From Ilumatobacter fluminis (GTDB lineage Bacteria > Actinomycetota > Acidimicrobiia > Acidimicrobiales > Ilumatobacteraceae): a DNA stretch of 64,000 nt. Under the pieces are notes generated by a model, which searched no databases, was not told the DNA's origin, and worked only from the letters and a program-made list of their open reading frames with translations. The stretch covers positions 682,001 through 746,000 of the forward strand of contig NZ_SOAU01000001.1 in assembly GCF_004364865.1 (NCBI RefSeq), read 5' to 3'. Position 1 is the stretch's first letter; each line of letters starts with the position of its first letter. Below, piece by piece: positions 15,146 through 59,571 of the stretch. A program made the translations under genes and the position numbers.

Positions 15146-15223
15146 GAAGGGGTCGGATACGTTTCGTCGGGTCGCCTTGTGCCGTTCGGCGTGCGGTGGC
15201 GACGAAACGTATCCGACCCCTTC
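15146..15223. repeat. 24-bp perfect inverted repeat, 30-nt loop (GGATACG family, copy 1)
   Basis: Arms 15146-15169 and 15200-15223 are exact reverse complements; the core is GGGGTCGGATACGTTTCGTC. It lies between convergent genes and its right arm reaches into the stop codon of the regulator on the minus strand. Copies with the same stem are at 57314-57384 and 59498-59571. Confidence 0.92.
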
Positions 15224-15917
15224 AGCTGCCCCAGCGGGACTGGCCGAAGCGGTAGCCGACGGAGCGGACCGTGGCGATCAGGCCGGCGTACTCCTCGCCG
15301 AGCTTGGCGCGGAGGCGACGGATGTGGACGTCGACCGTGCGGGCGCCGCCGTAGTACTCGTAGCCCCACACCCGGCTGAGCAGGATCTCGCGGGTGAAGA
15401 CCTTGCCCGGGTTCTGGGCCAGGAACTTCAACAGTTCGTACTCCATGTAGGTGAGGTCGAGCGGCCGCTTGGCGATCGTCGCCTGGTACGTCTCGAGGTT
15501 GAGGACCAGTTCGCCGTACTCGACCATGTCGGCTCGCAGCACGGGCGACGAGCCGGTCGCCCACATCAGGTGCCGCAGGCGCGCCTCGAGCTCGCTCGGG
15601 TGGAACGGCGACAGACAGAAGTCGTCGTACAGATCGTCGCGCAGTTCGAGTTCGCCGAGCTGGCCGCCCGACACCAGCAACATGATGCGGGTCGTCCCGT
15701 CGTCGTGCTGGCGGAGCGAACGACAGAACGCCCACGCGTTCTCGCTGTCGTCGCCGATCTCGACGATCGCGGCGCTCCATCCCTCCGCCGGTTCCGACTC
15801 GGCAGCCTCGTCCGCAGACGCAACTCCCTTCCACGAGTACCCGCCCAGATCGAGCGTGCGGGCGAGTTCGGGCGGCACGTCGGTGGCGAAGACTGCGATC
15901 ACACCGTTGCCGCTCAT
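15222..15917 (-). CDS. OmpR-type winged-helix regulator with atypical receiver, coupled to glnA
   Basis: 231 residues. The C-terminal ~100 residues are a clear OmpR/PhoB winged helix (V-F-T-R-E-I-L-L recognition region, T-V-D-V-H-I-R-R-L-R, V-G-Y-R-F). The N-terminal ~120 residues look like a receiver domain that has lost the usual phosphoacceptor context (V-E-I-G-D) and the Lys of the K-P-F motif (S-P-F here). GlnR, the actinobacterial nitrogen regulator, also has an atypical receiver, and the gene overlaps the GSI stop codon (TGATG), so a role in nitrogen control is a reasonable inference. Orthology to GlnR itself is not shown. Confidence 0.82.
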   Translation of the reverse strand: MSGNGVIAVFATDVPPELARTLDLGGYSWKGVASADEAAESEPAEGWSAAIVEIGDDSENAWAFCRSLRQHDDGTTRIMLLVSGGQLGELELRDDLYDDFCLSPFHPSELEARLRHLMWATGSSPVLRADMVEYGELVLNLETYQATIAKRPLDLTYMEYELLKFLAQNPGKVFTREILLSRVWGYEYYGGARTVDVHIRRLRAKLGEEYAGLIATVRSVGYRFGQSRWGS

Positions 15918-17254
15918 CACATCGACCTCAGGTACCGATCGATCTCGAACTGGCTGACGTGCTCCTTGTACGCCCACCATTCGCGGCGCTTGTTGCGCAG
16001 GAACCACTCGAAGATGTGCTCGCCGAGTGCCTCCTGCACCAGCTCGGACTCTTCCATCGTGCGGAGGGCGTCCGACAACGACTGCGGGAGTTGCGTGATC
16101 CCGAGTTTGGCGAGTGCGGCGTCGTCCATCTCGAACAGGTTGTCCTCGGCCTCCTCGGGCAGCTCGTAGCCCTCGTGGATGCCCTTCATGCCGGCGGCGA
16201 GCAGCACGCTGAACGCCAGGTACGGGTTGCACGCAGCGTCGGGGGAGCGGTACTCGATGCGGGTGGCCAGCGGGTTCGCCTTCTTGGCGATCGGCACCCG
16301 GATGAGGCCGCTGCGGTTGTTGCGGGCCCACGAGATGTGGACCGGTGCCTCGAAGCCCGGCACCAGACGCTTGTAGCTGTTGACCGTCTGGTTCGTGATG
16401 GCCGTGATCTCCGACGCGTGGCGGAGCAGACCGGCCATGAACGACTTGGCGACGGGCGACAGCTGGTGCGGGTCGTCGCCGTCGTAGAAGGCGTTCTCGT
16501 CGCCGCGGAACAGCGACATGTGGAGGTGCATGCCCGAGCCCTGCACTCCCTGGAGGGGCTTGGGCATGAACGTGGCGTGGACGCCTTGACTGGCGGCGAC
16601 CTCCTTGACGACGAGTCGGAACGTCATCACGCTGTCGGCCATCGTGAGGGCGTCGGTGTGCCGCAGGTCGATCTCCTGCTGGCTCGGCGCGTCCTCGTGG
16701 AACGAGTACTCGACCGGGATGCTCATCTGTTCGAGCTTGCGGATCGTCTGCTTGCGCAGGTCGCCGGCGGCGTCGCGCATCGTCAGGTCGAAGAAGCCGC
16801 CCTCGTCGAGCGGCGTGGGCCGCTCGCCGGGCGCCGGTTGTTCGAAGTAGAAGAACTCGACGTCGGGGGCGAGGTAGAACGTGTAGCCCTCGTCGTGGGC
16901 GGCGCGCACGTGGCGGCGCAGCACCTGGCGGGGGTCGCCGTCGAACGGGCTGCCGTCGAGGTGGTGGATGTCGCAGAACACCCGCGCCTCGGATGCGCCG
17001 GCTTCGCCCCACGGGATGATCTCGAACGTGTCGGGATCGGGGATCGCCAGCACGTCGGCTTCCTGGATGCGCGAGAACCCGTCGATCGACGAACCGTCGA
17101 ACGTCATGCCGTCCTCGAGCGCGTTCTCGAGTTCGGCCGGGCTGATGGCGAAGCTCCTCAGGTTGCCGAGCACGTCGGTGAACCAGAGCCGAACGAGGCG
17201 CACGCCTCGCTCTTCGACCGTGCGGAGCACGTAGTCGCGGTGTTGGTCGAGCAT
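15917..17254 (-). CDS. glnA: Glutamine synthetase, type I
   Basis: 445-residue GSI, making glutamine from glutamate, ammonia and ATP in the cytoplasm as a dodecamer. Visible are the D-G-S-S-I signature, the E-F-F metal region, the ATP-binding K-P-L-Q-G-x-x-G-S-G-M-H-x-H motif, N-x-x-N-S-Y-K-R and E-Y-R-S-P-D. The length and lack of the extra insertion and adenylylation loop fit the alpha-type rather than GlnA1. The start at 17254 is supported by AGGAG 8 nt upstream; an in-frame ATG 27 bp earlier has no such site. It follows GSII and its stop overlaps the start of the regulator gene. Confidence 0.93.
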   Translation of the reverse strand: MLDQHRDYVLRTVEERGVRLVRLWFTDVLGNLRSFAISPAELENALEDGMTFDGSSIDGFSRIQEADVLAIPDPDTFEIIPWGEAGASEARVFCDIHHLDGSPFDGDPRQVLRRHVRAAHDEGYTFYLAPDVEFFYFEQPAPGERPTPLDEGGFFDLTMRDAAGDLRKQTIRKLEQMSIPVEYSFHEDAPSQQEIDLRHTDALTMADSVMTFRLVVKEVAASQGVHATFMPKPLQGVQGSGMHLHMSLFRGDENAFYDGDDPHQLSPVAKSFMAGLLRHASEITAITNQTVNSYKRLVPGFEAPVHISWARNNRSGLIRVPIAKKANPLATRIEYRSPDAACNPYLAFSVLLAAGMKGIHEGYELPEEAEDNLFEMDDAALAKLGITQLPQSLSDALRTMEESELVQEALGEHIFEWFLRNKRREWWAYKEHVSQFEIDRYLRSM

Positions 17255-17277
17255 TCGACTCACTCCTTCAGTCTGTC

Positions 17278-17342
17278 GCACCGTAGGGGCGTGTGCGACA
17301 GGTCTCGCAGTGCGTCACACGGTAGGGCGGTGCGACAGGTCT
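17278..17342 (-). promoter_or_regulatory. Tandem 37-bp-spaced promoter repeats before glnA
   Basis: Read on the minus strand, AGACCTGTCGCAC followed by a CGCCC-TAC(C/G)GTG segment occurs twice, 37 bp apart (+ strand 17316-17342 and 17278-17305). Each copy contains a -10-like hexamer (TACCGT, TACGGT). TGTCGCAC at 17274-17281 is the inverse of GTGCGACA at 17293 and 17330, giving dyads. It is probably a duplicated, regulated promoter. Confidence 0.45.
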
Positions 17343-17355
17343 GGAAATGCCGAAC

Positions 17356-17384
17356 GGGAGCCCCGGCTCGGTGCCGGAGCTCCC
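17356..17384 (-). terminator. Hairpin downstream of glnII
   Basis: 12-bp arms with one mismatch (GGGAGC...GCTCCC outer part) around a 5-nt loop, starting 30 bp after the GSII stop on the minus strand. No U-tract follows, so it may attenuate rather than fully separate glnII from glnA. Confidence 0.5.
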
Positions 17385-17413
17385 GCTCGCCGATCAACGA
17401 CGGTGACCGTCGT

Positions 17414-18457
17414 TCACTTCTTCTTGGCGGCAGCCTTCTTCTTGGCCGGCTTGGCCTTCGGCGTGTTGATCGTCTCGGTGATGAGACGCGACACCGTGTA
17501 CGGGTCCATGTTGGCGTTCGGGCGGCGATCCTCGGCGTAGCCCTTGCCGTCCTTTTCGACCTGCCACGGGATGCGGATCGAGGCGCCACGGTCGGAGACG
17601 CCGTAGCTGAACTGATCCCAGGGGGCGGTCTCGTGGGAGCCGGTCAAGCGCTCGGCGACGCCGTCGCCGTAGTTCTCGACCAGTTCCATGAAGTTGGCGC
17701 CGATCTTCTCGCAGGCATCGATGATCGCGTCGTAGCTCTCACGCATCGCGACGTTGGAGAAGTTGGTGTGGCAGCCGGCGCCGTTCCAGTCGCCCTTCTC
17801 GGGCTTGGCGTCGAAGCTGATGATGACGTCGTAGTCCTCCGCGATGCGGTGGAGCAGCCAGCGAGCGACGTTGAGCTGGTCGCCGACGGCGGTCGGGCCG
17901 AGCGGGCCGACCTGGAACTCCCACTGACCGGGCATGACCTCGGGGTTGGTGCCCGAGATCGACAGGCCGGCGTCGATGCACGCCTGGGTGTGCTCTTCGA
18001 CGATCTGGCGACCCGAGATCTTGCCGGTGCCGACGCCGCAGTAGTACGGACCCTGGGGAGCGGGGAGTCCGCCGCCCTCGGGGAAGCCGAGCGGGGTGCG
18101 GTCGGCACGGAGCATCGTGTACTCCTGCTCGAGACCGAACAGCATCTGGGTGTCGGCGAACTTCTTCTCGACCTTGGCGCAGGCGTTGCGGGTGTTCGTC
18201 GGGTGCGGACGACCACTCACGAGCATGACCTCGCACATCACGAGGATGTTGCGGCCGCCGCGGATCGGGTCGGGGCACTTGAAGACGGGCTTGAGCACGC
18301 AGTCCGACTTGTCGCCGGTCGCCTGCTCGGTCGACGAGCCGTCGAAGCCCCAGATCGGGGGTTCGGTGACCTCGTCGTGGAGGATCTTCGTCTTGCTGCG
18401 CAGAGACGGAGTCGGCTCATAGCCGTCGAGCCAGATGTATTCAGCTTGGTACGCCAC
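17414..18457 (-). CDS. glnII: Glutamine synthetase, type II (eukaryote-like)
   Basis: 347 residues, the GSII length. Motifs include W-x-F-D-G-S-S-T near residue 37, a G-L-E-Q-E-Y-T metal motif, W-E-F-Q-V-G-P and D-W-N-G-A-G-C-H-x-N. GSII catalyses the same ATP-dependent ammonia assimilation as GSI and is typically induced under nitrogen limitation. The start is GTG, with AAGGA about 8 nt upstream. The C-terminus carries an unusual Lys/Ala-rich tail of about 14 residues (K-P-A-K-K-K-A-A-A-K-K-K) beyond the catalytic fold. A promoter and 11-bp-phased repeats lie upstream. Confidence 0.94.
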   Translation of the reverse strand: MAYQAEYIWLDGYEPTPSLRSKTKILHDEVTEPPIWGFDGSSTEQATGDKSDCVLKPVFKCPDPIRGGRNILVMCEVMLVSGRPHPTNTRNACAKVEKKFADTQMLFGLEQEYTMLRADRTPLGFPEGGGLPAPQGPYYCGVGTGKISGRQIVEEHTQACIDAGLSISGTNPEVMPGQWEFQVGPLGPTAVGDQLNVARWLLHRIAEDYDVIISFDAKPEKGDWNGAGCHTNFSNVAMRESYDAIIDACEKIGANFMELVENYGDGVAERLTGSHETAPWDQFSYGVSDRGASIRIPWQVEKDGKGYAEDRRPNANMDPYTVSRLITETINTPKAKPAKKKAAAKKK

Positions 18458-18483
18458 GGGGGAGTTCCTTCCGAGATAGCAGG

Positions 18484-18512
18484 GTTGTAGGGGCAGCGCC
18501 GAACGATGTCAG
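18484..18512 (-). promoter_or_regulatory. glnII promoter, CTGACA-N17-TACAAC
   Basis: On the minus strand -35 CTGACA (18507-18512) and -10 TACAAC (18484-18489) are separated by exactly 17 bp. Predicted initiation would leave a leader of roughly 20 nt carrying the GGAAGGAA ribosome site. Confidence 0.5.
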
Positions 18513-18529
18513 CAGGCCGTTGCACCGTC

Positions 18530-18557
18530 GTGTTCGCTGTGTGAACGCCGTGTGAAC
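18530..18557. promoter_or_regulatory. Three 11-bp-phased half-sites upstream of glnII
   Basis: GTGTTC (18530), GTGAAC (18541) and GTGAAC (18552) repeat with an exact 11-bp period, beginning 18 bp upstream of the glnII -35. GlnR boxes of actinobacteria also use an 11-bp period (5-bp sites with 6-bp spacers), so an activator site for a GlnR-like protein is plausible; the bases differ from the GTnAC/GAAAC consensus. Confidence 0.5.
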
Positions 18558-18685
18558 AGCGCCAGGTGGTGGCGAGCGACTGGGCAACCGGGCGGTTCGA
18601 CGTTGGACCAGCCCTCGCAACGAACCGTAGCGCATCGCCGCGACCGCGCTGCCATCGCCGCCCGCGACCGGGGTCGTTTCGACCG

Positions 18686-18713
18686 TGCGCGAACGATGCG
18701 CGAACCGTGCGCC
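18686..18713. promoter_or_regulatory. Second 11-bp-phased repeat, TGCGCGAAC
   Basis: TGCGCGAAC at 18686 and 18697, then TGCGCC at 18708, again with an 11-bp period and a shared GAAC core. The array lies about 45-65 bp upstream of the -10 of the lipoprotein gene, an activator-like position. Confidence 0.4.
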
Positions 18714-18749
18714 GTCCCGGCGCGACCGAGGCCGGTGGGCGCGAGGCAC

Positions 18750-18755
18750 TACCGT
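18750..18755 (+). promoter_or_regulatory. -10-like hexamer before the lipoprotein gene
   Basis: TACCGT is 8 nt before the GTG at 18764; there is no Shine-Dalgarno. Confidence 0.35.
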
Positions 18756-18763
18756 CGATCGGC

Positions 18764-19603
18764 GTGAGGTGGTGGCCCGCGGTCGGTCTGTTGGCGCTCG
18801 CGGCGTGCGGAGGCGGAGGCGACACGGCGCCGTCGACGACCCACCGACTGGCGCCGAGCCAGCGGTCGGCCTCGACCGTCGTCCGGCCCGACACCCCACC
18901 GCCGTGCGATCCCGACTCCCTGACGTGGTGGACCGCGCAGGCGAGTCCGGTCGACGTCACGTCGTCGGCGACCGTCCGGGTCAGGAACGACGGCGACGGC
19001 TGGTGCGAGGTCGACGTCGCCGGGTCACCGACGCTGTCGACCGAGGCGGAACCGAGCGTCTGGCTCGAACCGGGTGAGTGGGGCGACCTGATCGTCGGGT
19101 CCGAGGACGGCCGGTGCTCGCCGACGGTGTTCGACACGGTCGAGGTCGTCGTGAGTCACGTCATCGTCGAGGTGTCGTCGATCGTGGTCGCCGCGTGCGA
19201 GCCCTCGCTGCTCGCCTTCTACGTCGCCGACTCGCCCGACGAGCCCTGCGCCGACCTGGACGCCGTGTTCATCGATGACGTCGCCGACGGCGTCGTCGTG
19301 GTCCGCAACGCCGGCTTCGTGTCGTGCGATCTCGGTGCCGTCGTCGGAGAAGGGGTCGACGGCACGACGGCGCCGGCGATCACGGCGCTCGCCGGCGGTG
19401 ATGTCGTGGCGGTCGACGTGGTGCCGGTGGGGGACGGCTGTGGGGGCGACGCCTCGTCCGTCGAGTTCGATGCGGCAGGCACAGTGGTGGTGGACGGCCT
19501 CGAGGGTTGTCCGGTGGCCGGGCCCGCCCGCCCCTGGTTCGGGAGCGTGCCCGCACCGTCGCTCCCGGCCGACGCACTCGCGCTCCTCGATCCGTTCGGC
19601 TGA
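18764..19603 (+). CDS. Hypothetical Cys-containing lipoprotein
   Basis: 279 residues starting with GTG. A short signal with lipobox L-A-A-C (Cys near 15) followed by a Gly run predicts a lipid-anchored extracellular protein. The mature part has two similar beta-rich halves, each with a V-R-N-x-G strand and spaced cysteines (for example G-W-C-E-V and V-S-C-D-L), suggesting two Ig-like domains stabilised by disulfides. I do not recognise a named family. It is divergent from glnII and shares its regulatory gap, so nitrogen-linked expression is possible. Confidence 0.65.
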   Translation: MRWWPAVGLLALAACGGGGDTAPSTTHRLAPSQRSASTVVRPDTPPPCDPDSLTWWTAQASPVDVTSSATVRVRNDGDGWCEVDVAGSPTLSTEAEPSVWLEPGEWGDLIVGSEDGRCSPTVFDTVEVVVSHVIVEVSSIVVAACEPSLLAFYVADSPDEPCADLDAVFIDDVADGVVVVRNAGFVSCDLGAVVGEGVDGTTAPAITALAGGDVVAVDVVPVGDGCGGDASSVEFDAAGTVVVDGLEGCPVAGPARPWFGSVPAPSLPADALALLDPFG

Positions 19604-19632
19604 AGCGGCTGGCGTCGGTGGCCGTCGCGGCG

Positions 19633-19638
19633 TAGCGT
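19633..19638 (+). promoter_or_regulatory. -10-like hexamer before the DUF1992 gene
   Basis: TAGCGT is 7 nt before the GTG at 19646, in leaderless spacing. Confidence 0.35.
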
Positions 19639-19645
19639 TGCCGCC

Positions 19646-20011
19646 GTGAGCTATCTCGAGCGGATGCTCGAAGAGCGTCTGGCCAAGGCGGCCGCCGACG
19701 GTGAGTTGTCGGCACCGCGCCTCGAGGGCAAGCCGATCGCCGATCTCCACTGGGAGCGGCCCGAGGGTTGGTGGGCGAAGCGGTTCTTCGAACGCGAGCT
19801 CAGCCACGACCGGCGTGCGGCGGCGCTCGAAGGCGCAGCCGCTGCGAGAGCGGCGTTCTGGCGGTGCCCCGACGAGGACACGGTGCGGGCCGCCGTCGCC
19901 GATGCGAACGCGGCGATCGACCGGGCGAACGTCAACATCGTCGACGGCGCACCGGTCGATCACTTCGACACCGACGACATCGTCGACCGCTGGCGCCGCC
20001 TTCGCCGCTGA
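19646..20011 (+). CDS. DUF1992 / DnaJ-C28-like protein
   Basis: 121 residues, highly charged. The opening (Y-L-E-R-M-L-E-E-R-L-A-K-A) and following L-E-G-K-P-I-A-D-L match the DUF1992 module found in bacterial YhdN-like proteins and at the C-terminus of eukaryotic DNAJC28. The start is GTG, with TAGCGT 7 nt upstream. No J-domain is present. The C-terminal half is helical with R-A-N-V-N-I-V-D. Function is unknown; co-chaperone links are only by family name. Confidence 0.72.
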   Translation: MSYLERMLEERLAKAAADGELSAPRLEGKPIADLHWERPEGWWAKRFFERELSHDRRAAALEGAAAARAAFWRCPDEDTVRAAVADANAAIDRANVNIVDGAPVDHFDTDDIVDRWRRLRR

Positions 20012-20040
20012 GCCGATCGCCGAGCGCCACGCCGAGTCGG

Positions 20041-20250
20041 TCAGGCGGCGCCGAGATCGTCGTCGGGGCTGAAGATCTGCTCGATCGGGGCGTCGAACAC
20101 CCGCGAGAGCCGGAACGCGAGCGGCAGGCTCGGGTCGTAGCGGCCCTTCTCGAGCGCGTTGACGGTCTGACGGCTGACGCCGAGCAGGTCGGCCAGGTGA
20201 GCCTGGCTCCACCCATTGACGGCGCGCAGCTCTTTCAGTCGGTTCTGCAT
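20041..20250 (-). CDS. Small XRE-family HTH regulator
   Basis: 69 residues, essentially one helix-turn-helix domain: L-K-E-L-R...W-S-Q-A-H-L-A-D-L-L-G-V-S-R-Q-T-V-N-A-L-E form the classic five-helix core, followed by Y-D-P-S-L-P-L-A. Its ATG overlaps the stop of the membrane gene (TGATG), so the two are translated together. Such tiny Cro/XRE regulators paired with a small multi-span membrane protein are common and often autoregulatory; a palindrome over the promoter supports that here. Confidence 0.85.
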   Translation of the reverse strand: MQNRLKELRAVNGWSQAHLADLLGVSRQTVNALEKGRYDPSLPLAFRLSRVFDAPIEQIFSPDDDLGAA

Positions 20251-20678
20251 CAGCGCAATCCGCGCAGCAGGAGCGACCCGCTCCAGGCGACCATGCCGGC
20301 GCCGAACACGATCCACGGACCGTACGTCGGCGCGACCCCGATCCCGCCGAGGAAGCCGTACGCCATGGCGACGATCATCGAGACACCGAAGCCGAGCGCC
20401 ATGCACTCGAGCATCACCGTCCGGCCGTACTCGTCGGCTCGCTGGACCGCCCGGTAGAGGGCGACGGCGACGCCGATCATCGGGATGACGGGGAGCAACA
20501 CCCACCAGCGGGCGCCCGGCGTGTTCGCGTCGACCGTGGTCTGCACGATCGCGAGGAGGACGCCGTAGGTCAGGATCGCGGGGATGAACTCTTTGAGGTA
20601 ACTGTTGCGCTGCTGCTTGTCCGCGGCGCTCATTCGCTGTTCGCGCACTGCGGACGTGTCGTCGTGTCGATCGGTCAT
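20250..20678 (-). CDS. Small four-helix membrane protein in a regulator operon
   Basis: 142 residues with about four hydrophobic segments after a polar Ser/Gln/Lys-rich N-terminus. It resembles the membrane partners often encoded with small XRE regulators. I cannot name a function. ATG 20678 is preferred since a TACACT -10 ends 7 nt upstream with TTGTCA 17 bp beyond; a longer in-frame start would sit upstream of that promoter. Confidence 0.7.
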   Translation of the reverse strand: MTDRHDDTSAVREQRMSAADKQQRNSYLKEFIPAILTYGVLLAIVQTTVDANTPGARWWVLLPVIPMIGVAVALYRAVQRADEYGRTVMLECMALGFGVSMIVAMAYGFLGGIGVAPTYGPWIVFGAGMVAWSGSLLLRGLR

Positions 20679-20735
20679 GCTCGGCAGTGTAAAGGGTCCT
20701 TGTCTAAATGACAAACAAACTTTACGACAAGTGTC
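20679..20735 (-). promoter_or_regulatory. Leaderless promoter with TTGTC-N5-GACAA operator
   Basis: On the minus strand TTGTCA (20709-20714) and TACACT (20686-20691) are 17 bp apart, with the ATG 7 nt after the -10. The perfect palindrome TTGTC-TAAAT-GACAA (20700-20714) covers the -35, and a second dyad GACA-AG-TGTC lies at 20726-20735. The stretch is AT-rich for this genome. It is a likely autoregulatory site for the XRE protein. Confidence 0.65.
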
Positions 20736-20776
20736 CTTGACGTCAGCCCGTCGGTCGGTGGGCGGGAACCGAACGA

Positions 20777-20800
20777 TGTGACACCCCTTCGTCAGGATGG
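20777..20800 (+). promoter_or_regulatory. 24-bp conserved motif (TGTGACACCCCTTCGTCA...), copy 1
   Basis: It matches 39925-39948 upstream of rmuC at 22 of 24 positions. Here it lies 52 bp before the chosen ATG. It is probably a shared promoter or operator; the factor is unknown. Confidence 0.5.
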
Positions 20801-20851
20801 GTCGTGATCGGGCTCGTGCCCCGCCTCCACCGCTCCAGACAGGAACTCGCC

Positions 20852-21319
20852 ATGCTCGTCCTCATCGCCACCGACGAACTCTCCACCGAACCGCTCGGCT
20901 CGACCCCGTCCGATCACCACTGTGCCGTCGACGGCGAACTCGTCGCCCCCGTCGTGCTCGACTGCCCCGACGAACACTGCGACGTCTGCGATCGGGGCTG
21001 GTTCGGCCTCGTCAGTCACGGGGCGACCACCACCGCCATGGTCGTCGACCGTCCGGGCGTCACCGAACACACGCTGCGCACCCGGCTGCACGACTGGCTC
21101 GATTGCACCGGCACCATCGATCTCGTCGTGCAGGCGGTCGAGGCGGGCGACTACGCCGTGAACGGCGAAGTGTTCGACGACGCCGTCGCCGCGGTCGACG
21201 ACCTGGTGTCGGCCCACGTCGACGAGATCCGAGAGATCTGCGCCAACTTCGCGGTCGGCACGATCGTCAGCCGGATGGGGCAACTGGTCGCCCCCCGGTC
21301 GACCGCCGTTGCCGCCTGA
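20852..21319 (+). CDS. Conserved actinobacterial hypothetical protein with Cys-rich loop
   Basis: 155 residues. It opens with a hydrophobic strand (M-L-V-L-I-A-T), continues through a Cys-rich loop C-P-D-E-H-C-D-V-C, then S-H-G-A-T-T-T. That order resembles an uncharacterised actinobacterial family (DUF7715-like, from memory). The three close cysteines could bind a metal. ATG 20852 is used because AGGAA sits 6 nt upstream; a GTG at 20804 is in frame but lacks a ribosome site. Function unknown. It shares a 24-bp upstream motif with rmuC. Confidence 0.65.
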   Translation: MLVLIATDELSTEPLGSTPSDHHCAVDGELVAPVVLDCPDEHCDVCDRGWFGLVSHGATTTAMVVDRPGVTEHTLRTRLHDWLDCTGTIDLVVQAVEAGDYAVNGEVFDDAVAAVDDLVSAHVDEIREICANFAVGTIVSRMGQLVAPRSTAVAA

Positions 21320-21328
21320 TCGGCCGGG

Positions 21329-23929: not shown

Positions 23930-23931
23930 GG

Positions 23932-23946
23932 TTGACAGTTTGTCAA
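23932..23946. promoter_or_regulatory. TTGACA-N3-TGTCAA palindrome upstream of the XDH gene
   Basis: Perfect 6-bp dyad, ending 3 bp before the chosen GTG. Its position suits a repressor blocking initiation. If the true start is GTG 23968 the dyad would be coding. Confidence 0.4.
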
Positions 23947-24005
23947 AGCACGGGCGTGAAGTCAGCACGACGACTCGAACGTCACACCCCGTTCACGAAA
24001 GGGGC

Positions 24006-24101: not shown

Positions 24102-24111
24102 CCGGTGGACT

Positions 24112-50846: not shown

Positions 50847-50853
50847 CTCTGTG

Positions 50854-50859
50854 ATGGTA
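50854..50859 (-). promoter_or_regulatory. -10-like hexamer before the GGDEF/EAL gene
   Basis: On the minus strand TACCAT is 7 nt before GTG 50846, supporting that start. Confidence 0.4.
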
Positions 50860-50899
50860 GACGACGATGCCGCTGCGGAGCAGGGTCGTTCGGCTGCGT

Positions 50900-51487: not shown

Positions 51488-51538
51488 CGGCGAAGTCTCC
51501 CATTGTCGGTTGATGCTGGTGTGGCAGGATCGGTTGCG

Positions 51539-52972: not shown

Positions 52973-54063
52973 GACGACCTGCGCCGTCGACGGTGCTCCG
53001 CCTCGCGGCTGCCGCCTGGGTCGGCCCGCACGTCGCCCGGGCGGCGCTCGCCCACCGGCCGGACGCGCGGCCCACGGCGGCTCGCGACGACATCACGGTC
53101 GTCGTCCCCGCTCGCGACGAGGCCGACCGTCTCGAGCCGCTCCTCGTCGCACTCGGTGAGCGGTACGAGGTCGTCGTCGTCGACGACGGGTCGACCGACG
53201 GCACCGCTGCGCTCGCCCGCCGCTCGGGTGCGACCGTGGTGGAGGCCGGCGATCGGCCCGCGGGTTGGGCGGGCAAGACGTGGGCCCTGCAGCGTGGTGT
53301 GGAAGCGGCCAACGGTTCGTGGATCGTGCACCTCGACGCCGACGTGCGTCCGGCCGCCGACACGCCGACGGCAGCGGTCGCAGCGGCGGAGGAGCTCGGC
53401 GCCGATCTCCTCACGGTGGCCACCCGCGTCGTGGCACCGCCGGTGGCTCGTTGGCTGCACGCCTCGATGCTGGTGACGCTCGTGTGTCGCACCGGTGGGC
53501 CGGGTGGGCTCTCGCCCGGTCGTGAGATGGCGAACGGCCAGGTGCTCGCGGCCAGGCGGACGCTGCTCGCCGAGTCCGACGGGTGGAGCGCTGTCGCCGA
53601 TCACGTCACCGAGGACGTCGCGCTCGCAAGGCACCTCGCGTCGGTGGGGCGCCACGTCGCGATGGTCGACGGCGACGCCGAGATCGAGTTCGCCTCGTTC
53701 GGTGAGGTGTGGCGCGGGTGGGGCCGATCGATCGGGTTGCCCGGTATCGAGCCGAGATGGCGATCGGTGCTCGATCTCGTCGCGCTCGCAGCGGTGATGC
53801 CGTTGCCGCTCGCTCGGCTCGTGCTCGGCCGTGGTGACGCACTCGACATCGCGTTGCTCGCCGCTCGATGGGGGGCGGCGCTCGGGGTCGGACGCGCCTA
53901 CCGCCCGGCAGGGCCGGCTGTCTGGATGTCTCCGATCGCCGACCCGGTCGCGATCGGCACCGTCGCTGCGTCGGCGTTCCGTCGCCATATCAGCTGGCGC
54001 GGTCGTCGGTGGGCCGTCCCTCGAGTGCCGCCAGGGCGAAGCGGAACCCGACGAACGTCATGA
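52969..54063 (+). CDS. GT2 glycosyltransferase of carotenoid type
   Basis: 364 residues. A GT-A fold with V-V-V-P-A-R-D-E, V-V-V-D-D-G-S-T-D-G-T and the D-x-D H-L-D-A-D-V is followed by hydrophobic segments near the C-terminus (about 255-285 and 310-340), as in membrane-associated CruC/CruG/CrtQ-type transferases. It probably glycosylates the hydroxyl introduced by the CruF-like enzyme. It is co-translated with the desaturase (ATGA). Its 3' end overlaps the convergent PlsY-like gene by 74 bp. Confidence 0.82.
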   Translation: MRRPAPSTVLRLAAAAWVGPHVARAALAHRPDARPTAARDDITVVVPARDEADRLEPLLVALGERYEVVVVDDGSTDGTAALARRSGATVVEAGDRPAGWAGKTWALQRGVEAANGSWIVHLDADVRPAADTPTAAVAAAEELGADLLTVATRVVAPPVARWLHASMLVTLVCRTGGPGGLSPGREMANGQVLAARRTLLAESDGWSAVADHVTEDVALARHLASVGRHVAMVDGDAEIEFASFGEVWRGWGRSIGLPGIEPRWRSVLDLVALAAVMPLPLARLVLGRGDALDIALLAARWGAALGVGRAYRPAGPAVWMSPIADPVAIGTVAASAFRRHISWRGRRWAVPRVPPGRSGTRRTS

Positions 54064-54583
54064 GGACGCCGGTCGCCGCGGTTCGTCGAGGCCCCTCGGC
54101 TGCGAGCTGCACGACCGGGAACGAGGCGACGCCGGCGCGGGCGGCGACGTCGAAGCGACGAGTGCCCGCCCACACCGCCGTCGCGACGGCAACGCTCACG
54201 GCCGCGGCGCGCGGCGACGCGACCAGTCCGGTGCCGACGAACGTCAGCACGCTCCGACCACCTCGGAACCCGTCGGTGAACGGGTAGGCGTGACCGACCA
54301 GTGCGGCGCCTCCCGTGACGTACGGTGCCCACCAACCGCCGACGATTGCACGGCCGAGTCCGGCGGCGGCCACCCCCTTGGCGGTGTCGCCGACGAACAC
54401 GGGCAGCGCGGCCGATGTCCCGAGCAGCTCCATCGTGTTCCAGGCGCCCGGGTTGCGGTCGCCGACGTCGCGGAGGTCGTCGATGCCGTGGCGCCTCGCG
54501 ATCGTGCGTGCGACGGGCACAGAGCCCAGGAGGTAGCCCGCTGCCGTCGCGACGATGAGCCTGGTGCGCACGGGTGCCAGCAT
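53990..54583 (-). CDS. Divergent PlsY-like acyltransferase
   Basis: 197 residues with about five hydrophobic segments. PlsY glycerol-3-phosphate acyltransferases have three loops; here they read D-L-R-x-V-G-D-R-N-P-G-A-W-N (canonical G-S-G-N-x-G-A-T-N), G-D-T-A-K-G (intact) and G-H-A-Y-P-F...F-R-G-G-R-S (canonical F-K-G-G-K-G). The first and third loops deviate, so the natural acyl acceptor may differ from glycerol-3-phosphate. Lying in a carotenoid locus with a glycosyltransferase, it may acylate the carotenoid sugar. The ATG overlaps the CrtA-like start codon head to head; GTG 54571 is an alternative. Confidence 0.72.
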   Translation of the reverse strand: MLAPVRTRLIVATAAGYLLGSVPVARTIARRHGIDDLRDVGDRNPGAWNTMELLGTSAALPVFVGDTAKGVAAAGLGRAIVGGWWAPYVTGGAALVGHAYPFTDGFRGGRSVLTFVGTGLVASPRAAAVSVAVATAVWAGTRRFDVAARAGVASFPVVQLAAEGPRRTAATGVLMTFVGFRFALAALEGRPTDDRAS

Positions 54584-55277
54584 GGCCGATGTGGCGATCG
54601 CGTCGTTCCATCTCGTCGACGTCGGCCTCCGGCGCGCCCCCGCCGCTCTGGCCCGGATCGGGCTCGACCGTCGTGCACTGGCACGCACTCCCGGCTTGCT
54701 CCACGCCCGGTCGCTCGGCGCCGGTCGTGACGGTCGGATGGCGATGTCGTTCCAGCCCGACCGACGAGCGCTGTTCGCCGTGTGGCGCAACGAAGCAGCG
54801 CTCGACCGGTTCCTCGACGAGAACCCGGTGGCGGCCCGGTGGACGACCGCCGAGGCGTCGTGGCACGTTCGCCTCCGGCTGATCGAGGGGCACGGTCGAT
54901 GGGCGGGCGAGCCGATCCTCGACGAGATCGAACCGGCGCGAGGCATCGGTGGTCCGGTCGTGACGGTGACCCGAGCGGCGATCCGGCTCGGCGCGTTGCC
55001 GTCGTTCCTCCGCCACAGCCGTTCGGTGACGGGATCGCTGGACGCCGTCGCCGGGCTGCGCCGAGCCGTGGGGTTCGGCGAGGTTCCGATCGTCCGGCTC
55101 GGCACGGTGGCGGTGTGGGACGACGACGGAGCCGCCCGACGGGCGATGACCGAGTGGTCGGATCACGCCGCGGCGATGCGCGCCGCAGCCGCCAACCGCA
55201 TGTTCACCGAATCCCTCTTCGCCCGCTTCGAACCCATCCCCGGACCGGACGAAGGCGTGAACAGTGTGCGCACCTGA
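54582..55277 (+). CDS. crtA: CrtA-like spheroidene monooxygenase family protein
   Basis: 231 residues matching the heme-type CrtA family: R-R-A-P...R-T-P-G-L-L-H, a G-x-G-R-x-G loop, A-V-W-R-N-E-A-A, W-H-V-R-L and a late F-G-E-V-P-I-V-R-L-G-T...V-W-D-D. CrtA introduces 2-keto groups at the psi end of acyclic carotenoids. It fits the CruF-like hydratase and the absence of a cyclase. The last codons and stop are encoded by a 26-bp inverted repeat. An in-frame ATG at 54555 is a possible earlier start. Confidence 0.8.
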   Translation: MADVAIASFHLVDVGLRRAPAALARIGLDRRALARTPGLLHARSLGAGRDGRMAMSFQPDRRALFAVWRNEAALDRFLDENPVAARWTTAEASWHVRLRLIEGHGRWAGEPILDEIEPARGIGGPVVTVTRAAIRLGALPSFLRHSRSVTGSLDAVAGLRRAVGFGEVPIVRLGTVAVWDDDGAARRAMTEWSDHAAAMRAAAANRMFTESLFARFEPIPGPDEGVNSVRT

Positions 55278-55303
55278 TGCGCACACTGTTCACGCCTTCG
55301 TCG
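55247..55303. repeat. 26-bp perfect inverted repeat, 5-nt loop, containing a stop codon
   Basis: Arms 55247-55272 and 55278-55303 are exact reverse complements; the loop holds the TGA of the CrtA-like gene. It sits at the convergent end of that gene and the alpha/beta hydrolase, so it can terminate both. The stem differs from the GGATACG family and the loop is much shorter. Confidence 0.92.
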
Positions 55304-55320
55304 GGGCGAGCCGGGCCGGG

Positions 55321-55965
55321 TCAGGCGTAGCGGGCCAGGGCGTCGGTGAGCGACGACATCTCGCGCACGCCGGGCTCGTCGACGACGGCCCGGAGCCAGC
55401 GAGGGCGGAACTTCGCGGTCACGGTGATCGGCTCGTCGAGCCCGGAACCCTCGTTGGCCAGACGCACGAACGTCGTGGCGTAGTCGGGCGGGCGAAGGTC
55501 GCGACCGAGTTCGAGGATCGCATAGGGATCGGGGGTCGAGTCGACCGCGTCGGCCGTGACCACCGGCTGTGAGGTCGGCGACGTCGGTCCGCCCGACATG
55601 CCCGGGCCGTCCGACAGCACGACGCCACGGACGGCCGCCGCTCGGGCGCCACCGATGAGGAGCCCGATGTATGCACCGAGACCTCGACCGACCACGGTCA
55701 CCTGGCCCAGTTCGCGGACCGCCATGTCGGCGTCGGCGAGCAGCATTTCGGCGGTGTAGCCGCCACCGATCGGGAGTCCGCTCGCACCGTGGCCGGTGAA
55801 GTCGAGGGCGTGCACGGCGCCGGGCCAGCACTGTGCGAACCGGGGGACGGCGTCGGGAGAGGCCTCGCCGAGGCCGTGCAGCAGCAGCAGGTTCGGTCCG
55901 TCCGCGGCGCGCAGGGTGTGCAGCGCCAACTCGACCTTGTTGTGGGTGAGGAAGGTGGTGCTCAT
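55321..55965 (-). CDS. Alpha/beta-hydrolase-fold protein without catalytic serine
   Basis: 214 residues. The fold is recognisable (L-L-L-L-H-G-L-G oxyanion strand, A-L-D-F-T-G-H-G-A-S), but the nucleophile elbow, normally G-x-S-x-G, is G-R-G-L-G here, with Gly in place of Ser. No obvious catalytic His follows. It overlaps the upstream active hydrolase gene by 4 bp (ATGA). It may be a non-enzymatic partner or ligand-binding protein. Confidence 0.78.
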   Translation of the reverse strand: MSTTFLTHNKVELALHTLRAADGPNLLLLHGLGEASPDAVPRFAQCWPGAVHALDFTGHGASGLPIGGGYTAEMLLADADMAVRELGQVTVVGRGLGAYIGLLIGGARAAAVRGVVLSDGPGMSGGPTSPTSQPVVTADAVDSTPDPYAILELGRDLRPPDYATTFVRLANEGSGLDEPITVTAKFRPRWLRAVVDEPGVREMSSLTDALARYA

Positions 55966-56873
55966 GCCGGGGCTCCCAGGAACTCCATGATGCGGGCGGC
56001 CGTCGCCTGCGGCTGTTCGATGTGGGCGAAGTGCCCGACGCCCTTGATCTCCTCGACGTGACCGCCGTCGGGAAGGTACGGGGTGACGTCGTCGATCGTC
56101 GTGTCCCACCCCATCGGCTCCGAGTGCTCGACCAGCAATCCGTAGAACGGCACGCCGAGCGAGGCCATCTTCGGCAGCGCCCACTCGGGTCGCCAGGGGC
56201 CGAACCCTCCGAAGCGGATCGACGGGTCGAGCTTCCAACGCCACCCGTCGTTCGACTCGAACGCCCCGACCGACACGAGGTAGCGGAGCCAGTCGGGTCG
56301 CAGGCGCGGGTTCATGCGCCGCCGCCGCTCGGCCAACTCGTCGACGGTGCCCGGCTTGCGCTCGGCGGTCGCCGTCGTCGCACGATGGTCGAGCCACGTC
56401 GTGATCTCACCGGTCAGCATCTTGGTCCGCTCGTGCTCGGCGACGTCGGGAACCGGTCGGCGAGACGGCATGCCGTCGATGTTGACGATCTTGCGGAAGC
56501 GGAACGGGGCGGCGTCGGCCAGGTTGAGGCAGAGTGCCCCGCCTTTGGAGTGCCCGATCGCCGGCACGGCGCGTCGGCCGGCCGCGTGGTCGAACACGGC
56601 GGAGGCGTCGCGCAGGTCGGCCTCCCACGAGTAGAGGTGGGTGTGGGCGCTGTCGCCGTGACCGCGATGGTCCCAGCTGACGACGCGCCAGCCGGCGTCG
56701 GCGAAGATTGGCGCGAAGACGTCGAAGGTGCGGGCGAAGTCGAAGCCGCCGTGCGCCATCATCAGCGGCGGAGCGTCGGCGTCACCCCATTCGTGGATGG
56801 CGATACCCACGCCTTTCGCGTCGATGGTGTACTCGCGATCGGGTGTCCGTGCACCAGGGAACTCGGGGGTCAC
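55962..56873 (-). CDS. Alpha/beta hydrolase (active-site intact)
   Basis: 303 residues starting with GTG. H-G-G-F-D-F, W-D-H-R-G-H-G-D-S and the nucleophile elbow G-H-S-K-G-G are intact, and G-V-G-H-F-A-H supplies the C-terminal histidine. An esterase, lipase or epoxide-hydrolase-like activity is likely but unspecified. TACGCT lies 7 nt before the GTG. It overlaps the next gene, whose product is a catalytically altered homologue. Confidence 0.82.
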   Translation of the reverse strand: MTPEFPGARTPDREYTIDAKGVGIAIHEWGDADAPPLMMAHGGFDFARTFDVFAPIFADAGWRVVSWDHRGHGDSAHTHLYSWEADLRDASAVFDHAAGRRAVPAIGHSKGGALCLNLADAAPFRFRKIVNIDGMPSRRPVPDVAEHERTKMLTGEITTWLDHRATTATAERKPGTVDELAERRRRMNPRLRPDWLRYLVSVGAFESNDGWRWKLDPSIRFGGFGPWRPEWALPKMASLGVPFYGLLVEHSEPMGWDTTIDDVTPYLPDGGHVEEIKGVGHFAHIEQPQATAARIMEFLGAPA

Positions 56874-56943
56874 GTGGTGGAGCGTAGGTGGACGGCGTAC
56901 GATCTTTCGGACCCGACCCGCCTCGTGCGGAGTGACATCTGCC
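56874..56943. promoter_or_regulatory. Divergent promoter region, hydrolase / LysM lipoprotein
   Basis: Minus-strand TACGCT (56881-56886) is 7 nt from GTG 56873. Plus-strand TACGAT (56898-56903) gives a leader of about 33 nt with GGAG before the ATG at 56944. Confidence 0.4.
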
Positions 56944-57297
56944 ATGCGCCGCCTCGTCATCGTTCCCAGCCTCGTCGTCTCAGCCGCTCTCGTCGCCGCC
57001 TCGTGTGGCAGCGAGGCGTCGAGCGCGATCGAGACACTGCCGCCGATCCGCACCACGACGTCGACGTCGACCACCACGACGACGATCGACCCGCGCGGCA
57101 TCATCTACATCGTGCAGCCCGGCGACAACGTGAACGAGATCGCCAAGAGCTACCAGGTCACGGCGGCGATGATCATCGAACTGAACCGTCTGGGCGCCGA
57201 CGGTGAGATCCAGCCGGGCCAGGAACTCGAGATCCCCAACATCCGGGTCGACACCACGCGCCCCACCCTGCCACCGGACTCCACCGACGCCCCCTGA
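56944..57297 (+). CDS. LysM-domain lipoprotein
   Basis: 117 residues. The signal peptide ends V-A-A-S-C (lipobox Cys near 21), followed by a Thr-rich stalk (about 37-48) and one LysM domain (I-Y-I-V-Q-P-G-D-N to I-P-N-I). It should be a lipid-anchored peptidoglycan- or chitin-oligosaccharide-binding protein with no catalytic domain. The C-terminus is Pro/Thr-rich. A GGATACG inverted repeat follows. Confidence 0.88.
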   Translation: MRRLVIVPSLVVSAALVAASCGSEASSAIETLPPIRTTTSTSTTTTTIDPRGIIYIVQPGDNVNEIAKSYQVTAAMIIELNRLGADGEIQPGQELEIPNIRVDTTRPTLPPDSTDAP

Positions 57298-57313
57298 CCG
57301 AGGGCCGGTCGTT

Positions 57314-57384
57314 GGGGTCGGATACGTTTCGTCGACCACGAGCCCGACAGACGGCGGGACGTGCGACGAAACGTATCCGACCCC
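57314..57384. repeat. 21-bp perfect inverted repeat, 29-nt loop (GGATACG family, copy 2)
   Basis: Arms 57314-57334 and 57364-57384 are exact reverse complements with the same stem as 15146 and 59498. It lies after the LysM gene. Confidence 0.92.
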
Positions 57385-57431
57385 GTTCGCCTCGAGTGAC
57401 GAAGTGCCCTGTGCGGGCGGCGGAGCGTTCG

Positions 57432-57437
57432 TAGACT
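57432..57437 (+). promoter_or_regulatory. -10-like hexamer before the hydroxylase-like gene
   Basis: TAGACT is 7 nt before ATG 57445. Confidence 0.4.
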
Positions 57438-57444
57438 GGTGCGC

Positions 57445-58146
57445 ATGAGTTTCTGGCCGACGCCCGAACACTGGAGCGTGAAGATCCCGCTCCAGACCGA
57501 CCACTACCGCATGCCGGTGCTCGACGAGACCGGCGTCGTCGAACTGGGCCCGATGCCCGTCGAGGTGCCCGCGTCCGAGTGGGAGTCACTCGAGTACATG
57601 GACTGGAAGTCGGGTGGCGACACCAACTTCGCGCCGATCGCCTCGGCCGACGGCGAGCTCGACTGCCGCGGCTTCTGGGACAAGGGCAAGACCGACAAGG
57701 ACGCGCTCTGGACGTCGAACGCCGAGATCGCCCCGACGCTTCGCGAGTACGTCGACGCCGTGGGCGCCAACTTCGGTCGGGTCCGCATCATCAAGCTCGA
57801 GCCCCAAGATCGTGAGACCGCGATCCGCTCCATCCACCGCGACGACAACAACCGGTTCAACCCCGACGGTGAGGGCTGGGTCGTGCGGTCGTGGGTCGAG
57901 CTGACCGACAACCCCGACAGTTACATGTTGTTGATGGACAACGACGAGAACGGTCTGCCCGACCCGGCGACCGAACGTCGCGTGCCGCTGAACAAGGGCG
58001 CCCGCTTCGTCGTCGACACCCAGCGGCTGTGGCACGTCGTCGTCCACAACGGCGACGCCCCGCGCTACGCGCTGATCACCAGCTTCGAATCGGGCCCAGC
58101 CCTCGAGACCTGGATCGACGCCCAGCGCGCCACCGCCGACGTCTGA
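57445..58146 (+). CDS. Aspartyl/asparaginyl beta-hydroxylase-like oxygenase
   Basis: 233 residues. The jelly-roll region has H-R-D-D-N-N-R near residue 131, W-V-V-R-S-W-V-E-L, a P-L-N-K-G strand and W-H-V-V-V-H-N-G-D, an H-x-D...H pattern of 2-oxoglutarate/Fe(II) oxygenases of the Asp/Asn beta-hydroxylase group. It has no signal peptide, so it would act in the cytoplasm. Substrate unknown; a non-catalytic cupin is an alternative. ATG 57445 is chosen for its TAGACT spacing. Confidence 0.65.
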   Translation: MSFWPTPEHWSVKIPLQTDHYRMPVLDETGVVELGPMPVEVPASEWESLEYMDWKSGGDTNFAPIASADGELDCRGFWDKGKTDKDALWTSNAEIAPTLREYVDAVGANFGRVRIIKLEPQDRETAIRSIHRDDNNRFNPDGEGWVVRSWVELTDNPDSYMLLMDNDENGLPDPATERRVPLNKGARFVVDTQRLWHVVVHNGDAPRYALITSFESGPALETWIDAQRATADV

Positions 58147-58156
58147 CGCTTCGCTC

Positions 58157-59455
58157 TTACTGGACCTCGTCGAGGGTCCAGGCGACGGCGGCGGCTGCGG
58201 CCGACATGACGGCGAACACCACGAACAGCCACGACAGGCCGATCGTGCTCGACAGCACACCGAACGCGCTCGTCGCCAGGATCACGATGCCGACCACGGT
58301 GTTCGAGACGGCGGTGTAGATCGCCCGCTCGTCCTCGCTCGCCATGTCGACGAGGTGCGTCGAGCGGCCGAGTCGGACGCCCTGGTAGGCCAGCACGACG
58401 AGGAACAGCAGCCCCGACGCGAGCCAGGCACTCTCGAGCCAGCCCGCCGCGGAGCCGGTCGTGGCGGTGACGAACAGCAGCGTCGACGCAGCAGCGGCGC
58501 CTACCAGCACCAGCCGTGACGACCGATCGGACAGCCGTCCCCACAGTCGCCCGCCGACGATCGTGGCGATCGACGAGGCGATCACGAACGGTCCGAGGAC
58601 ACCGAGGCCGCTGCTGTCGCCCTCCCGCGCCAGCGCCAACACGTACGGCGGGGCGACCGCGGTGACCGTAAGGAGGGACCGGGTGGCGACGAACCGCCCG
58701 AGCTGGGCGTCCTCCCACAGCAGCGTCAGGTTGCCGAGCGCGACCCCGATGCCGTTGCGACCGCCTTCGGTCGCTCCCTCGTCCTCACGCACGAACGAGA
58801 AGAGCAGCCCGGCGAAGATCCAGCAGGCGCCGGCCACGACCAGCACCGTCGCGATCGCGGTCGTGGTGAGCGGGATGATCTCGGCCCACAGCAGCACGCC
58901 GAAGGCGAGCACGGCGGCGGCCGACAGTGACGTGGCGGTGCCGGTCACGGTGCCGCGCCGAGACTTCGACACGGTCTTGCCCAGCACGTCCTTGTAGCTC
59001 ACCGACGCAGCGCTCCGAGCGACGCCGAACAGGACGACCAGGCCGACGATCGACCACCCGGCGGCGGCACCGTCGAGCGTGAACGCCACCAGTGCGATCG
59101 CGAGGACGACCAGACCCTGGGCGAGCGAGGCGCCGGCCCAGACCCACTTGCGTCGAGGCAGCTCGCGGATCGAGCCGGCGATGAAGAGCTGGGGGAGGAG
59201 CGCCATGGCCTCGCGAACCGGGACGATCGCACCGATCGCGGCCGCCGGCGCCGACAGCGCGCCGAGGAGCCAGGCCAGCACGAGCTTGGGGTCGAGCAGG
59301 CCGTCGCCGGTCTTGGTGGCGCTGAGGCTGGCGAGATGGACGCCGAGGTTGCGAGGTTGCTCGTGGCAGGCGGCTTCCGGGATGTCCTTGCAGACCCGGT
59401 CGGCCCCCTCACCGAAGACGAGTTCGGTCGCCCGATCGAACGAGAGTGTGGTCAT
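58157..59455 (-). CDS. MFS transporter
   Basis: 432 residues with about twelve hydrophobic segments after a ~55-residue hydrophilic N-terminus containing two cysteines (V-C-K-D, A-C-H-E). The middle has the charged cytoplasmic loop between the two six-helix halves (S-F-V-R-E-D-E). The classical MFS motif A is weak. Efflux or uptake substrate unknown. It is convergent with the hydroxylase-like gene, 10 bp apart. A GGATACG repeat lies upstream. Confidence 0.78.
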   Translation of the reverse strand: MTTLSFDRATELVFGEGADRVCKDIPEAACHEQPRNLGVHLASLSATKTGDGLLDPKLVLAWLLGALSAPAAAIGAIVPVREAMALLPQLFIAGSIRELPRRKWVWAGASLAQGLVVLAIALVAFTLDGAAAGWSIVGLVVLFGVARSAASVSYKDVLGKTVSKSRRGTVTGTATSLSAAAVLAFGVLLWAEIIPLTTTAIATVLVVAGACWIFAGLLFSFVREDEGATEGGRNGIGVALGNLTLLWEDAQLGRFVATRSLLTVTAVAPPYVLALAREGDSSGLGVLGPFVIASSIATIVGGRLWGRLSDRSSRLVLVGAAAASTLLFVTATTGSAAGWLESAWLASGLLFLVVLAYQGVRLGRSTHLVDMASEDERAIYTAVSNTVVGIVILATSAFGVLSSTIGLSWLFVVFAVMSAAAAAVAWTLDEVQ

Positions 59456-59497
59456 GACCCCGAATGACTACCCCGTCACCCGAACCCCGAAACGACG

Positions 59498-59571
59498 ATG
59501 GGGTCGGATACGTTTCGTCGTCGCAGAGCCGGCGACGACGACGGTCTGCGACGAAACGTATCCGACCCCAT
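59498..59571. repeat. 23-bp perfect inverted repeat, 28-nt loop (GGATACG family, copy 3)
   Basis: Arms 59498-59520 and 59549-59571 are exact reverse complements with the same stem as copies 1 and 2. It lies downstream of the mutase gene and upstream of the MFS gene. Confidence 0.92.

Follow-up and report, generated by a model that had tools for sequence, protein, structure and literature searches.

How palindromes of the REP (repetitive extragenic palindrome) kind move, and how they come to be placed behind genes, is an old open question. Among the REP-associated tyrosine transposases (RAYTs), one branch, known as TIRYT or TIRtron, consists of Y1 transposase genes with terminal inverted repeats (TIRs) that carry the motif GGGGWSAS (PMC3733652, in its accessible part). 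As far as the available text of a later survey goes, TIRYT are largely placed in subclass 2.1, and the Actinobacteridae sampled there have subclass 1.1 only (PMC6006769). The cleavage rules of TnpAREP have also been described (PMC8266576, in its accessible part). The present work concerns a 64,000-nucleotide stretch of the genome of Ilumatobacter fluminis (contig NZ_SOAU01000001.1, positions 682,001 to 746,000; hereafter the window), which bears long palindromes of a family termed F1. It is proposed, with a probability of roughly two in three, that F1 is a family of non-autonomous palindromic repeats which Y1 transposases move, or once moved, in trans, and that gene ends have been recolonised by such families. 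The closest known kind is the TIRYT branch of the RAYTs.

In the window, the 20-nt arm GGGGTCGGATACGTTTCGTC has six exact matches, at 15149, 57314 and 59500 on the forward strand and at 15201, 57365 and 59550 on the reverse, where 100 shuffled versions held 0.04 on average and never more than 2. These matches form three elements of the long F1 form. The first, at 15146-15223 (arms 15149-15168 and 15201-15220, extended by GAA/TTC), lies between two convergent genes, a GDSL-type lipase (weak match) and a regulator with a Trans_reg_C domain, 17 nt past the stop at 15131 and 1 nt from the opposing gene's stop at 15222. The second, at 57314-57384 (arms 57314-57333 and 57365-57384), begins 16 nt after a LysM open reading frame that ends at 57297. 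The third, at 59498-59571 (arms 59500-59519 and 59550-59569), is found behind a methylmalonyl-CoA mutase gene, 17 nt from its stop at 59587. With 21-nt arms counted, the loops measure 30, 29 and 28 nt, and further stems fold inside each of them. A fourth palindrome of the window, at 1804-1874, belongs to a sister family, F2, and was overlooked in the initial annotation, as was the shorter form to which most F1 copies of the genome belong. Folded with short flanks, the four elements reach -57.7 to -67.7 kcal/mol, with z-scores of -5.8 to -9.0. The initial annotation had described three inverted repeats with these loops, each just after a gene end, as members of a dispersed family that spreads or is kept in the role of terminators. 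The coordinates and loops are confirmed, and a gene 3' end is indeed present 1-17 nt from each element.

The spread is borne out by the copy number. In the complete genome of I. fluminis (4,775,416 bases, one contig), a search allowing two mismatches finds 78 copies of the F1 arm, 41 forward and 37 reverse, and not merely those of the three palindromes first noticed; the reversed pattern gives none. With up to three mismatches, the counts are 46 and 40, several of these being of a sister type, GGTGTCGGATCCGTTGCGTC. Beyond this genome, arms with up to two mismatches are confined to three others of the 100 genomes searched. The relatives of the same genus are G003, with 51 forward and 50 reverse (101 in total), and G005, with one of each; G057 has a single arm. 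A scan for the exact arm in a named genome collection, which may leave out records of the window's own genome, returned 42 stretches, of which 41 are from Ilumatobacter sp. HKST-UBA13 and one is from Acidimicrobiia bacterium 3_bin.6. One long F1 element in G003 (locus L097, 5077-5146) joins sequences that lie 1.7 Mb apart in I. fluminis (1365438 and 3109787). Each of the two counterparts in I. fluminis adjoins an F1 element, so a rearrangement breakpoint lies close beside the element.

By its plan, F1 is one of at least four families (F1, F2, FT and F6) sharing one design, in which two inverted small hairpin units, each made of stem X, the core GGKGTCRGRYMC and stem X', flank a spacer. Elements were collected with a detector that requires ends of GG[GT]GTC[AG]G and at most three mismatches per 16 between the arms, so that degenerate copies and other families are undercounted. 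The counts given for elements refer to examined stretches of I. fluminis, G003 and G004 (a further relative of the genus), picked for containing elements. A total of 202 elements of all families were detected, 77 in I. fluminis, 74 in G004 and 51 in G003. Among them, at least 36 F1 palindromes were recognised in I. fluminis, of which 23 are short and 13 long; in G003, 37 are short and one is long. The long form, which is the one present in the window, measures 67-72 bp with a spacer of 27-32 bases. The short form is nearly always 46 bp: an arm, a six-base loop and an arm, the loop being mostly GGGACC or GGTCCC, which are one loop in two orientations. This 46-bp form is two units fused, with the spacer lost.

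Half of an F2 element is a hairpin of its own, CCAGAA-GGGGTCAGGCACC-TTCTGG. The same is true of half of an FT element, for example GACAGGA-GGTGTCGGATACC-TCCTGTC, and, where outer arms exist, of an F1 half, GACGAA-NGGGGTCGGATACGT-TTCGTC. Outer arms are part of F2, FT and F6, and F1 may end at GGGGTC, because pairing continues outward for six or seven bases in those three families (82-100% at positions 1-6) against 45-68% in F1. The spacers are partly related and thus not wholly independent in sequence: CAGGTC/GACCTG is found in 20 of 65 F2 spacers, where shuffling would give 1.1, in 12 of 54 FT spacers (1.0) and in one of 14 F1 spacers (0.3). When the ten genomes of the genus, mostly draft assemblies and several of them incomplete, were searched for the plan, the pattern with GGGGTC ends was found 85 times in I. 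fluminis, 99 times in G003, 21 in G004 and seven in G005, with none in the other six. The pattern with GGTGTC ends was found 58 times in G004, three in I. fluminis and once in G003. Reversed controls gave zero for both, and the shared design is thus seen in four of the ten genomes. At locus L105 (3076901-3077026 of the I. fluminis contig), an F1 element is broken by two copies of a different palindrome, which resembles GGATGATGTCAGACATCATCC; here a palindrome of the single kind, its core being TGTCAGACA, thus lies inside F1. At locus L135 (10617-10629, contig 1534616-1534628), the perfect single palindrome ACGGATGGGGTCTGACCCCATCCGT is the F6 core in single form.

The placement behind stop codons holds for the families taken together. 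Gene positions were taken from a home-made gene caller, which missed the LysM frame beside 57314. For F1-type and sister sites of I. fluminis, 46 of 47 are intergenic, the remaining one lying inside a weakly scored gene call; 18 are in convergent, 20 in codirectional and eight in divergent gaps, 57314 being wrongly counted among the divergent ones owing to the missed gene. Taking all the families together, 191 elements were placed between genes and six within called genes. A gene 3' end is found within 30 nt of 157 of the 191, and convergent gaps host 76 of them, as against 174 of 790 gaps overall. The distance from stop to element peaks at 6 and 9 nt. In F2, at a distance of 6, the GA of the stop codon TGA is at the same time part of the outer arm GACCAGAA. 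Beside elements, TAG stops are enriched (40/226 vs 43/600), as are stops followed by C (151/226 vs 287/600). TGAC was considered as a strict target and discarded; it is commoner beside elements (127/226 vs 252/600, p 0.0003) but far from exclusive.

One line of evidence for recolonisation comes from orthologous sites, located by mapping both 900-bp flanks of an element between genomes. Out of 74 elements in G004, 27 map into examined sequence of I. fluminis, and 22 of these 27 gaps bear an element or half-arm there. Random gaps of the same region would give 9.0, and none of 200,000 simulations reached 22; restricted to regions of at least 6.5 kb, the figures are 19 of 24 against 6.7. Similarly, nine of the ten mapped elements of G003 fall on element-bearing gaps, where 3.8 would be expected. 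In the reverse direction, the figures are biased upwards, as the examined regions were picked for containing elements: the counterpart of the 22 I. fluminis elements mapped in G004 is a full element in 20 cases, a remnant in one and an F2 end in one, while of nine mapped in G003, seven face a full element, one an empty site and one a palindrome of another family. The family differs in 17-18 of the 20 full pairs between I. fluminis and G004 and agrees in two (F2-F2), or in three when the GGTGTC types are lumped. All eight G003 elements mapped in G004 face another family, the G004 stretches having been chosen for their elements.

Six sites of I. fluminis were chosen regardless of the relatives: 1804, 15149, 57314 and 59500 of the window, and 18372 and 23106 of the genome. 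Ten comparisons with G003 and G004 gave a palindrome in five cases, an F2-like end only in one and an empty site in four. The five occupied sites hold an F2 of another arm type, a half F2 and an FT in G004, and an F2 twice in G003. Site 59500 carries F1 in I. fluminis, FT in G004 and F2 in G003, and site 1804, which has no palindrome in G003, is occupied in G004 by an F2 whose arms are of another type. Elsewhere, the G003 orthologue of the F1 site at 1843361 (L083, near 4273) bears a palindrome of a further family with the core GTGGTCAGACCAGG, and an element of G004 (L189, 2194) faces the F1 copy at 741500. In G004, the sites that correspond to 18372 and 1395519 carry TGACCCCTTCTGGTCAG, interpretable as the right end of an F2 fused to a stop codon.

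Nested copies form the second line of evidence. A full F2 directly beside an F1 half was found in G003 at L069, L073, L074 and L085 (more loosely at L088) and in I. fluminis at 3038835. In a similar manner, an F2 at 3693460 follows a half-element of the GGTGTCGGATCCGTTGCGTC type, and FT elements at L214 and L237 follow halves of another FT type. By arithmetic from 99 pairs of the GGGGTC type and 101 F1 arms in the 4.4 Mb of G003, well under one such neighbour would be expected by chance. On the far side, the first 110 nt or so show no full second half of the older element. Extra cores within 70 nt were counted in 35 of 400 flank windows against nine of 389 controls, some of them being additional arms of the same family. 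Further, 31 fragments made of an outer arm and GGKGTC lie no more than 80 nt from an element, and all 31 point the same way as the arm next to them; 404 control windows have none. In 13 of them the core is left directly after GGKGTC, about six of these running straight into the next outer arm. We infer that these 13 are the ends that remained when older elements were cut after GGKGTC, while slippage of a 12-base unit is a simpler account for the tandem ones.

The presumed movers were sought by profile search. PF01797, the Y1 transposase profile, scores above its cut-off in eight of the ten genomes of the genus, and with the genus and the family taken together, the flanks of 22 Y1 loci were read. 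Nine of them have matching palindromes on both sides: those in G003 and G004, one each in G002, G006, G021, G120 and G016, and those in G057 and G059. Of the other 13, some match on a single side, some have different repeats or no match, and in some a flank cannot be judged (contig ends, N runs, partial genes). The Y1 gene of G003, whose protein P0001 bears what we take by eye to be the HUH and Tyr motifs, lies between two F2 elements with nearly identical spacers, the second of which overlaps the gene end. The counterpart of this interval in G004, bordered by what look by eye like an ABC-F-type and an sdhB-type gene, holds one palindrome and no Y1 gene. Another Y1 gene of G004, with one in-frame TAG, is situated between F6-like elements of 85 and 44 bp. 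The genes of G002, G006, G021, G120, G016, G057 and G059 are flanked by matching single palindromes, most of which have cores like GTGYCAGRCAC; these, for example CGTAACGGTTT-GGTGCCAGGCACC-AAACCGTTACG, have a stem of their own at each locus. The Y1 gene of G005 has inverted ends, GGGGTCAGGCACA. Scored as candidate REP-associated tyrosine transposases, the Y1 proteins match PF01797 above its cut-off, and their only NCBIfam match is NF047646, below cut-off at 46.2 and 53.4 of 80 bits. For the helix-turn-helix that subclass 2.1 proteins carry at the C-terminus, no Pfam match was obtained in ten Y1 proteins with E up to 5 and the HMMER filters on, the proteins extending past the Y1 domain.

For F1 itself, a partner was sought with PF01797 through the genus and with the P0001 protein through the genus and 81 genomes of the family; none of the 22 Y1 loci whose flanks were read has F1 arms beside it. 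An interval of 1.35 kb between two variant elements, 118832-120276, was tried as the site of an F1 partner and rejected; by eye, it holds a CapA-like gene and no transposase. The sole Y1 gene found in I. fluminis is at 4551879-4553039 of the contig (L053, 1270-2430). It is a distant one, 33% identical to P0001 over residues 10-265, and lies between tandem arrays whose units begin with GGGTCAGGTG, a style of repeat unlike F1. The likeness to RAYT systems suggested in the initial annotation stands in part: sister families and related palindromes do flank IS200-like Y1 genes, but the elements are not GTAG-tagged REPs, and no F1-flanked Y1 gene was found in the ten genomes of the genus, most of them draft assemblies.

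Compared with the described systems, the Y1 genes here resemble TIRYT in having matching inverted repeats on either side, some of them self-complementary (F2, F6-like and single palindromes), in the tag GGGGTCAG of F2 and F6, which fits GGGGWSAS, and in dispersed copies, many of them as dimers. They differ in that the FT tag GGTGTCGG, like that of F1, does not fit the motif, in that F1 has no Y1 partner found and in that one family can stand in for another at a given site from species to species. The host also differs, being Ilumatobacter of the Acidimicrobiia, whereas the accessible part of PMC6006769 has subclass 1.1 alone in its Actinobacteridae. With no partner gene found for it, F1 itself is a candidate member of TIRYT/RAYT. 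With the REPINs of RAYT systems and with bacterial interspersed mosaic elements, the long F1, F2, FT and F6 forms share a less conserved spacer enclosed by two inverted hairpin units, dispersal and an extragenic position (PMC3116915 and PMC6006769, in their accessible parts), along with a single-strand Y1 transposase as the presumed mover; compensatory changes are also reported for REPINs in the available part of PMC3116915. The 46-bp form resembles the 'double foot' REP, which the available text explains by central deletion of a dimer. Unlike REPs, however, the copies listed and their flanks show by eye no GTAG/GTGG tetranucleotide at the hairpin foot, and unlike REPINs, each unit has a conserved part between its stem halves. 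REPs nested in palindromes (GTAG-15, GTAG-23, CGTC-1) are a parallel to the elements found inside other palindromes, and REP ends that give stop codons are on record (PMC3733652, in part); here, by contrast, the palindrome that was there first comes from a sister family built to the same plan, and the site finally carries another family. Different REP classes are also known to flank orthologous RAYT genes in related strains (PMC3686654, in part), whereas here the change occurs at dispersed sites away from the transposase gene. No published account of family exchange at dispersed orthologous sites, or of such elements in Ilumatobacter, was found in the open literature (subscription papers and preprints aside). 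One genus offers transposase-palindrome units, orphan families, empty and filled sites, nested copies and recurrent end fragments side by side; since these occur together, boundaries and landing rules can be read from the sequence, and the uncoupling of place and family helps to tell selection for a hairpin at a gene end apart from selfish spread.

In the proposed mechanism, the units are, or were, moved in trans by single-strand Y1 (HUH) transposases of the TIRYT/RAYT branch. The enzyme would recognise the hairpin, so that existing palindromes would be preferred landing places. A new element would insert into an old one, at its loop or its end, and the old one would remain as a half or as an end of 12-13 nt (outer arm and GGKGTC), and successive families would thus recolonise gene ends. 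The enzyme that moved F1 in I. fluminis would be gone or not recognised. A bolder extension, possible but held rather tentatively, is that gene ends are inherited docking sites at which successive families displace each other at the same stop codons, with the place and the hairpin tending to stay while the sequence is exchanged. If it is true, a gene end often keeps a hairpin though no single hairpin is kept.

Several observations weigh against mobilisation by Y1 transposases. In the ten genomes of the genus, several of them incomplete, no Y1 gene was found beside arms of FT or of F1, the very family at issue; the TIR motif GGGGWSAS is not matched by the F1 tag GGGGTCGG; and the mobility of F1 is read from sequence comparison, no transposition having been observed. 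In the fragments, the core is left directly after GGKGTC in only 13 of 31, the rest continuing into a longer arm, and several consist of a 12-base unit simply doubled in tandem, which slippage could make as well. Clean excision scars, GGKGTC..GACMCC, were sought and set aside: they show no excess in element-bearing genomes, the pattern being too short. At orthologous sites, gaps matched for gene orientation raise the expectation from 9.0 to 16.4 of 27 (p 0.0025), so that a permissive type of gap explains a good part of the co-occupancy. Full pairs between I. fluminis and G003 are of the same family in six of seven, as plain inheritance would give, and empty sites are found in G003 (57314, 1804 and 23106) and in G004 (23106). 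The probability given to the proposal takes into account that sites shared by I. fluminis and G003 mostly keep their family and that only part of the end fragments are clean.

If the palindromes were functional hairpins first, serving as bidirectional RNA terminators or as stabilisers of mRNA 3' ends, selection on pairing would change both arms together. The position behind stops, the share of convergent gaps and the very stable folds would then be expected, as would a place that is kept while the family differs. The arms, too, would fit: the two 20-nt arms are identical in 168 of the 202 elements, and departures from a family's commonest arm are symmetric in 125 cases against 47 one-sided (11 symmetric arm types being seen once), although the detector favours symmetric arms with its limit of three mismatches in 16, and most symmetric differences separate subtypes of many copies. 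Drift under pairing alone would nevertheless not give dozens of letter-identical arms. Nested copies and end fragments also speak against this reading, and the families are patchy across species, with sites empty in several relatives. Within 57000-60000, the part scanned (which excludes the elements at 1804 and 15149), no terminator-like site with a T-tract was found, the GC-rich stem being present, and Rfam has no match in the window at the gathering score. Functional hairpins are thus an unlikely origin, while the elements as they stand may or may not have a part at RNA 3' ends. It is somewhat less probable still that each site goes back to one ancestral insertion whose arms were overwritten by recombination or hairpin-templated repair, with the spacer kept. 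The spacers at site 59500 are in keeping with this, being alike between I. fluminis and G003 (z 2.95), partly so between I. fluminis and G004 (z 2.13) and little between G003 and G004 (z 1.09). At site 757427, both arms differ together between I. fluminis and G003, which resembles a change in place. Over 14 orthologous pairs of different families, however, the likeness of spacers is not clear (combined z 1.5), as it is not in F2-F2 pairs, though the spacers may have diverged too far for such a test. An ordinary miniature inverted-repeat element moved by a DDE transposase, which has terminal inverted repeats and duplicates its target site, would likewise be short, non-autonomous and dispersed with inverted ends; it is nonetheless very improbable, as the filled and empty pairs inspected by eye have no consistent target duplication and the genes encountered between matching palindromes encode Y1 enzymes, in searches that were not aimed at DDE transposases.

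Among the remaining features of the window, the F2 element spans 1797-1881, with the core GGGGTCAGGCACC, arms at 1804-1823 and 1855-1874 and outer arms GACAGAA/TTCTGTT. The convergent-gene gap at 58147-58156 is an empty site, and G004 carries an F2 element there. The segment 17417-17459 matches many places in the I. fluminis genome, for example 2319740-2319887 (with a spacing of 36) and 3531093-3531474, and is perhaps a repeated coding motif.

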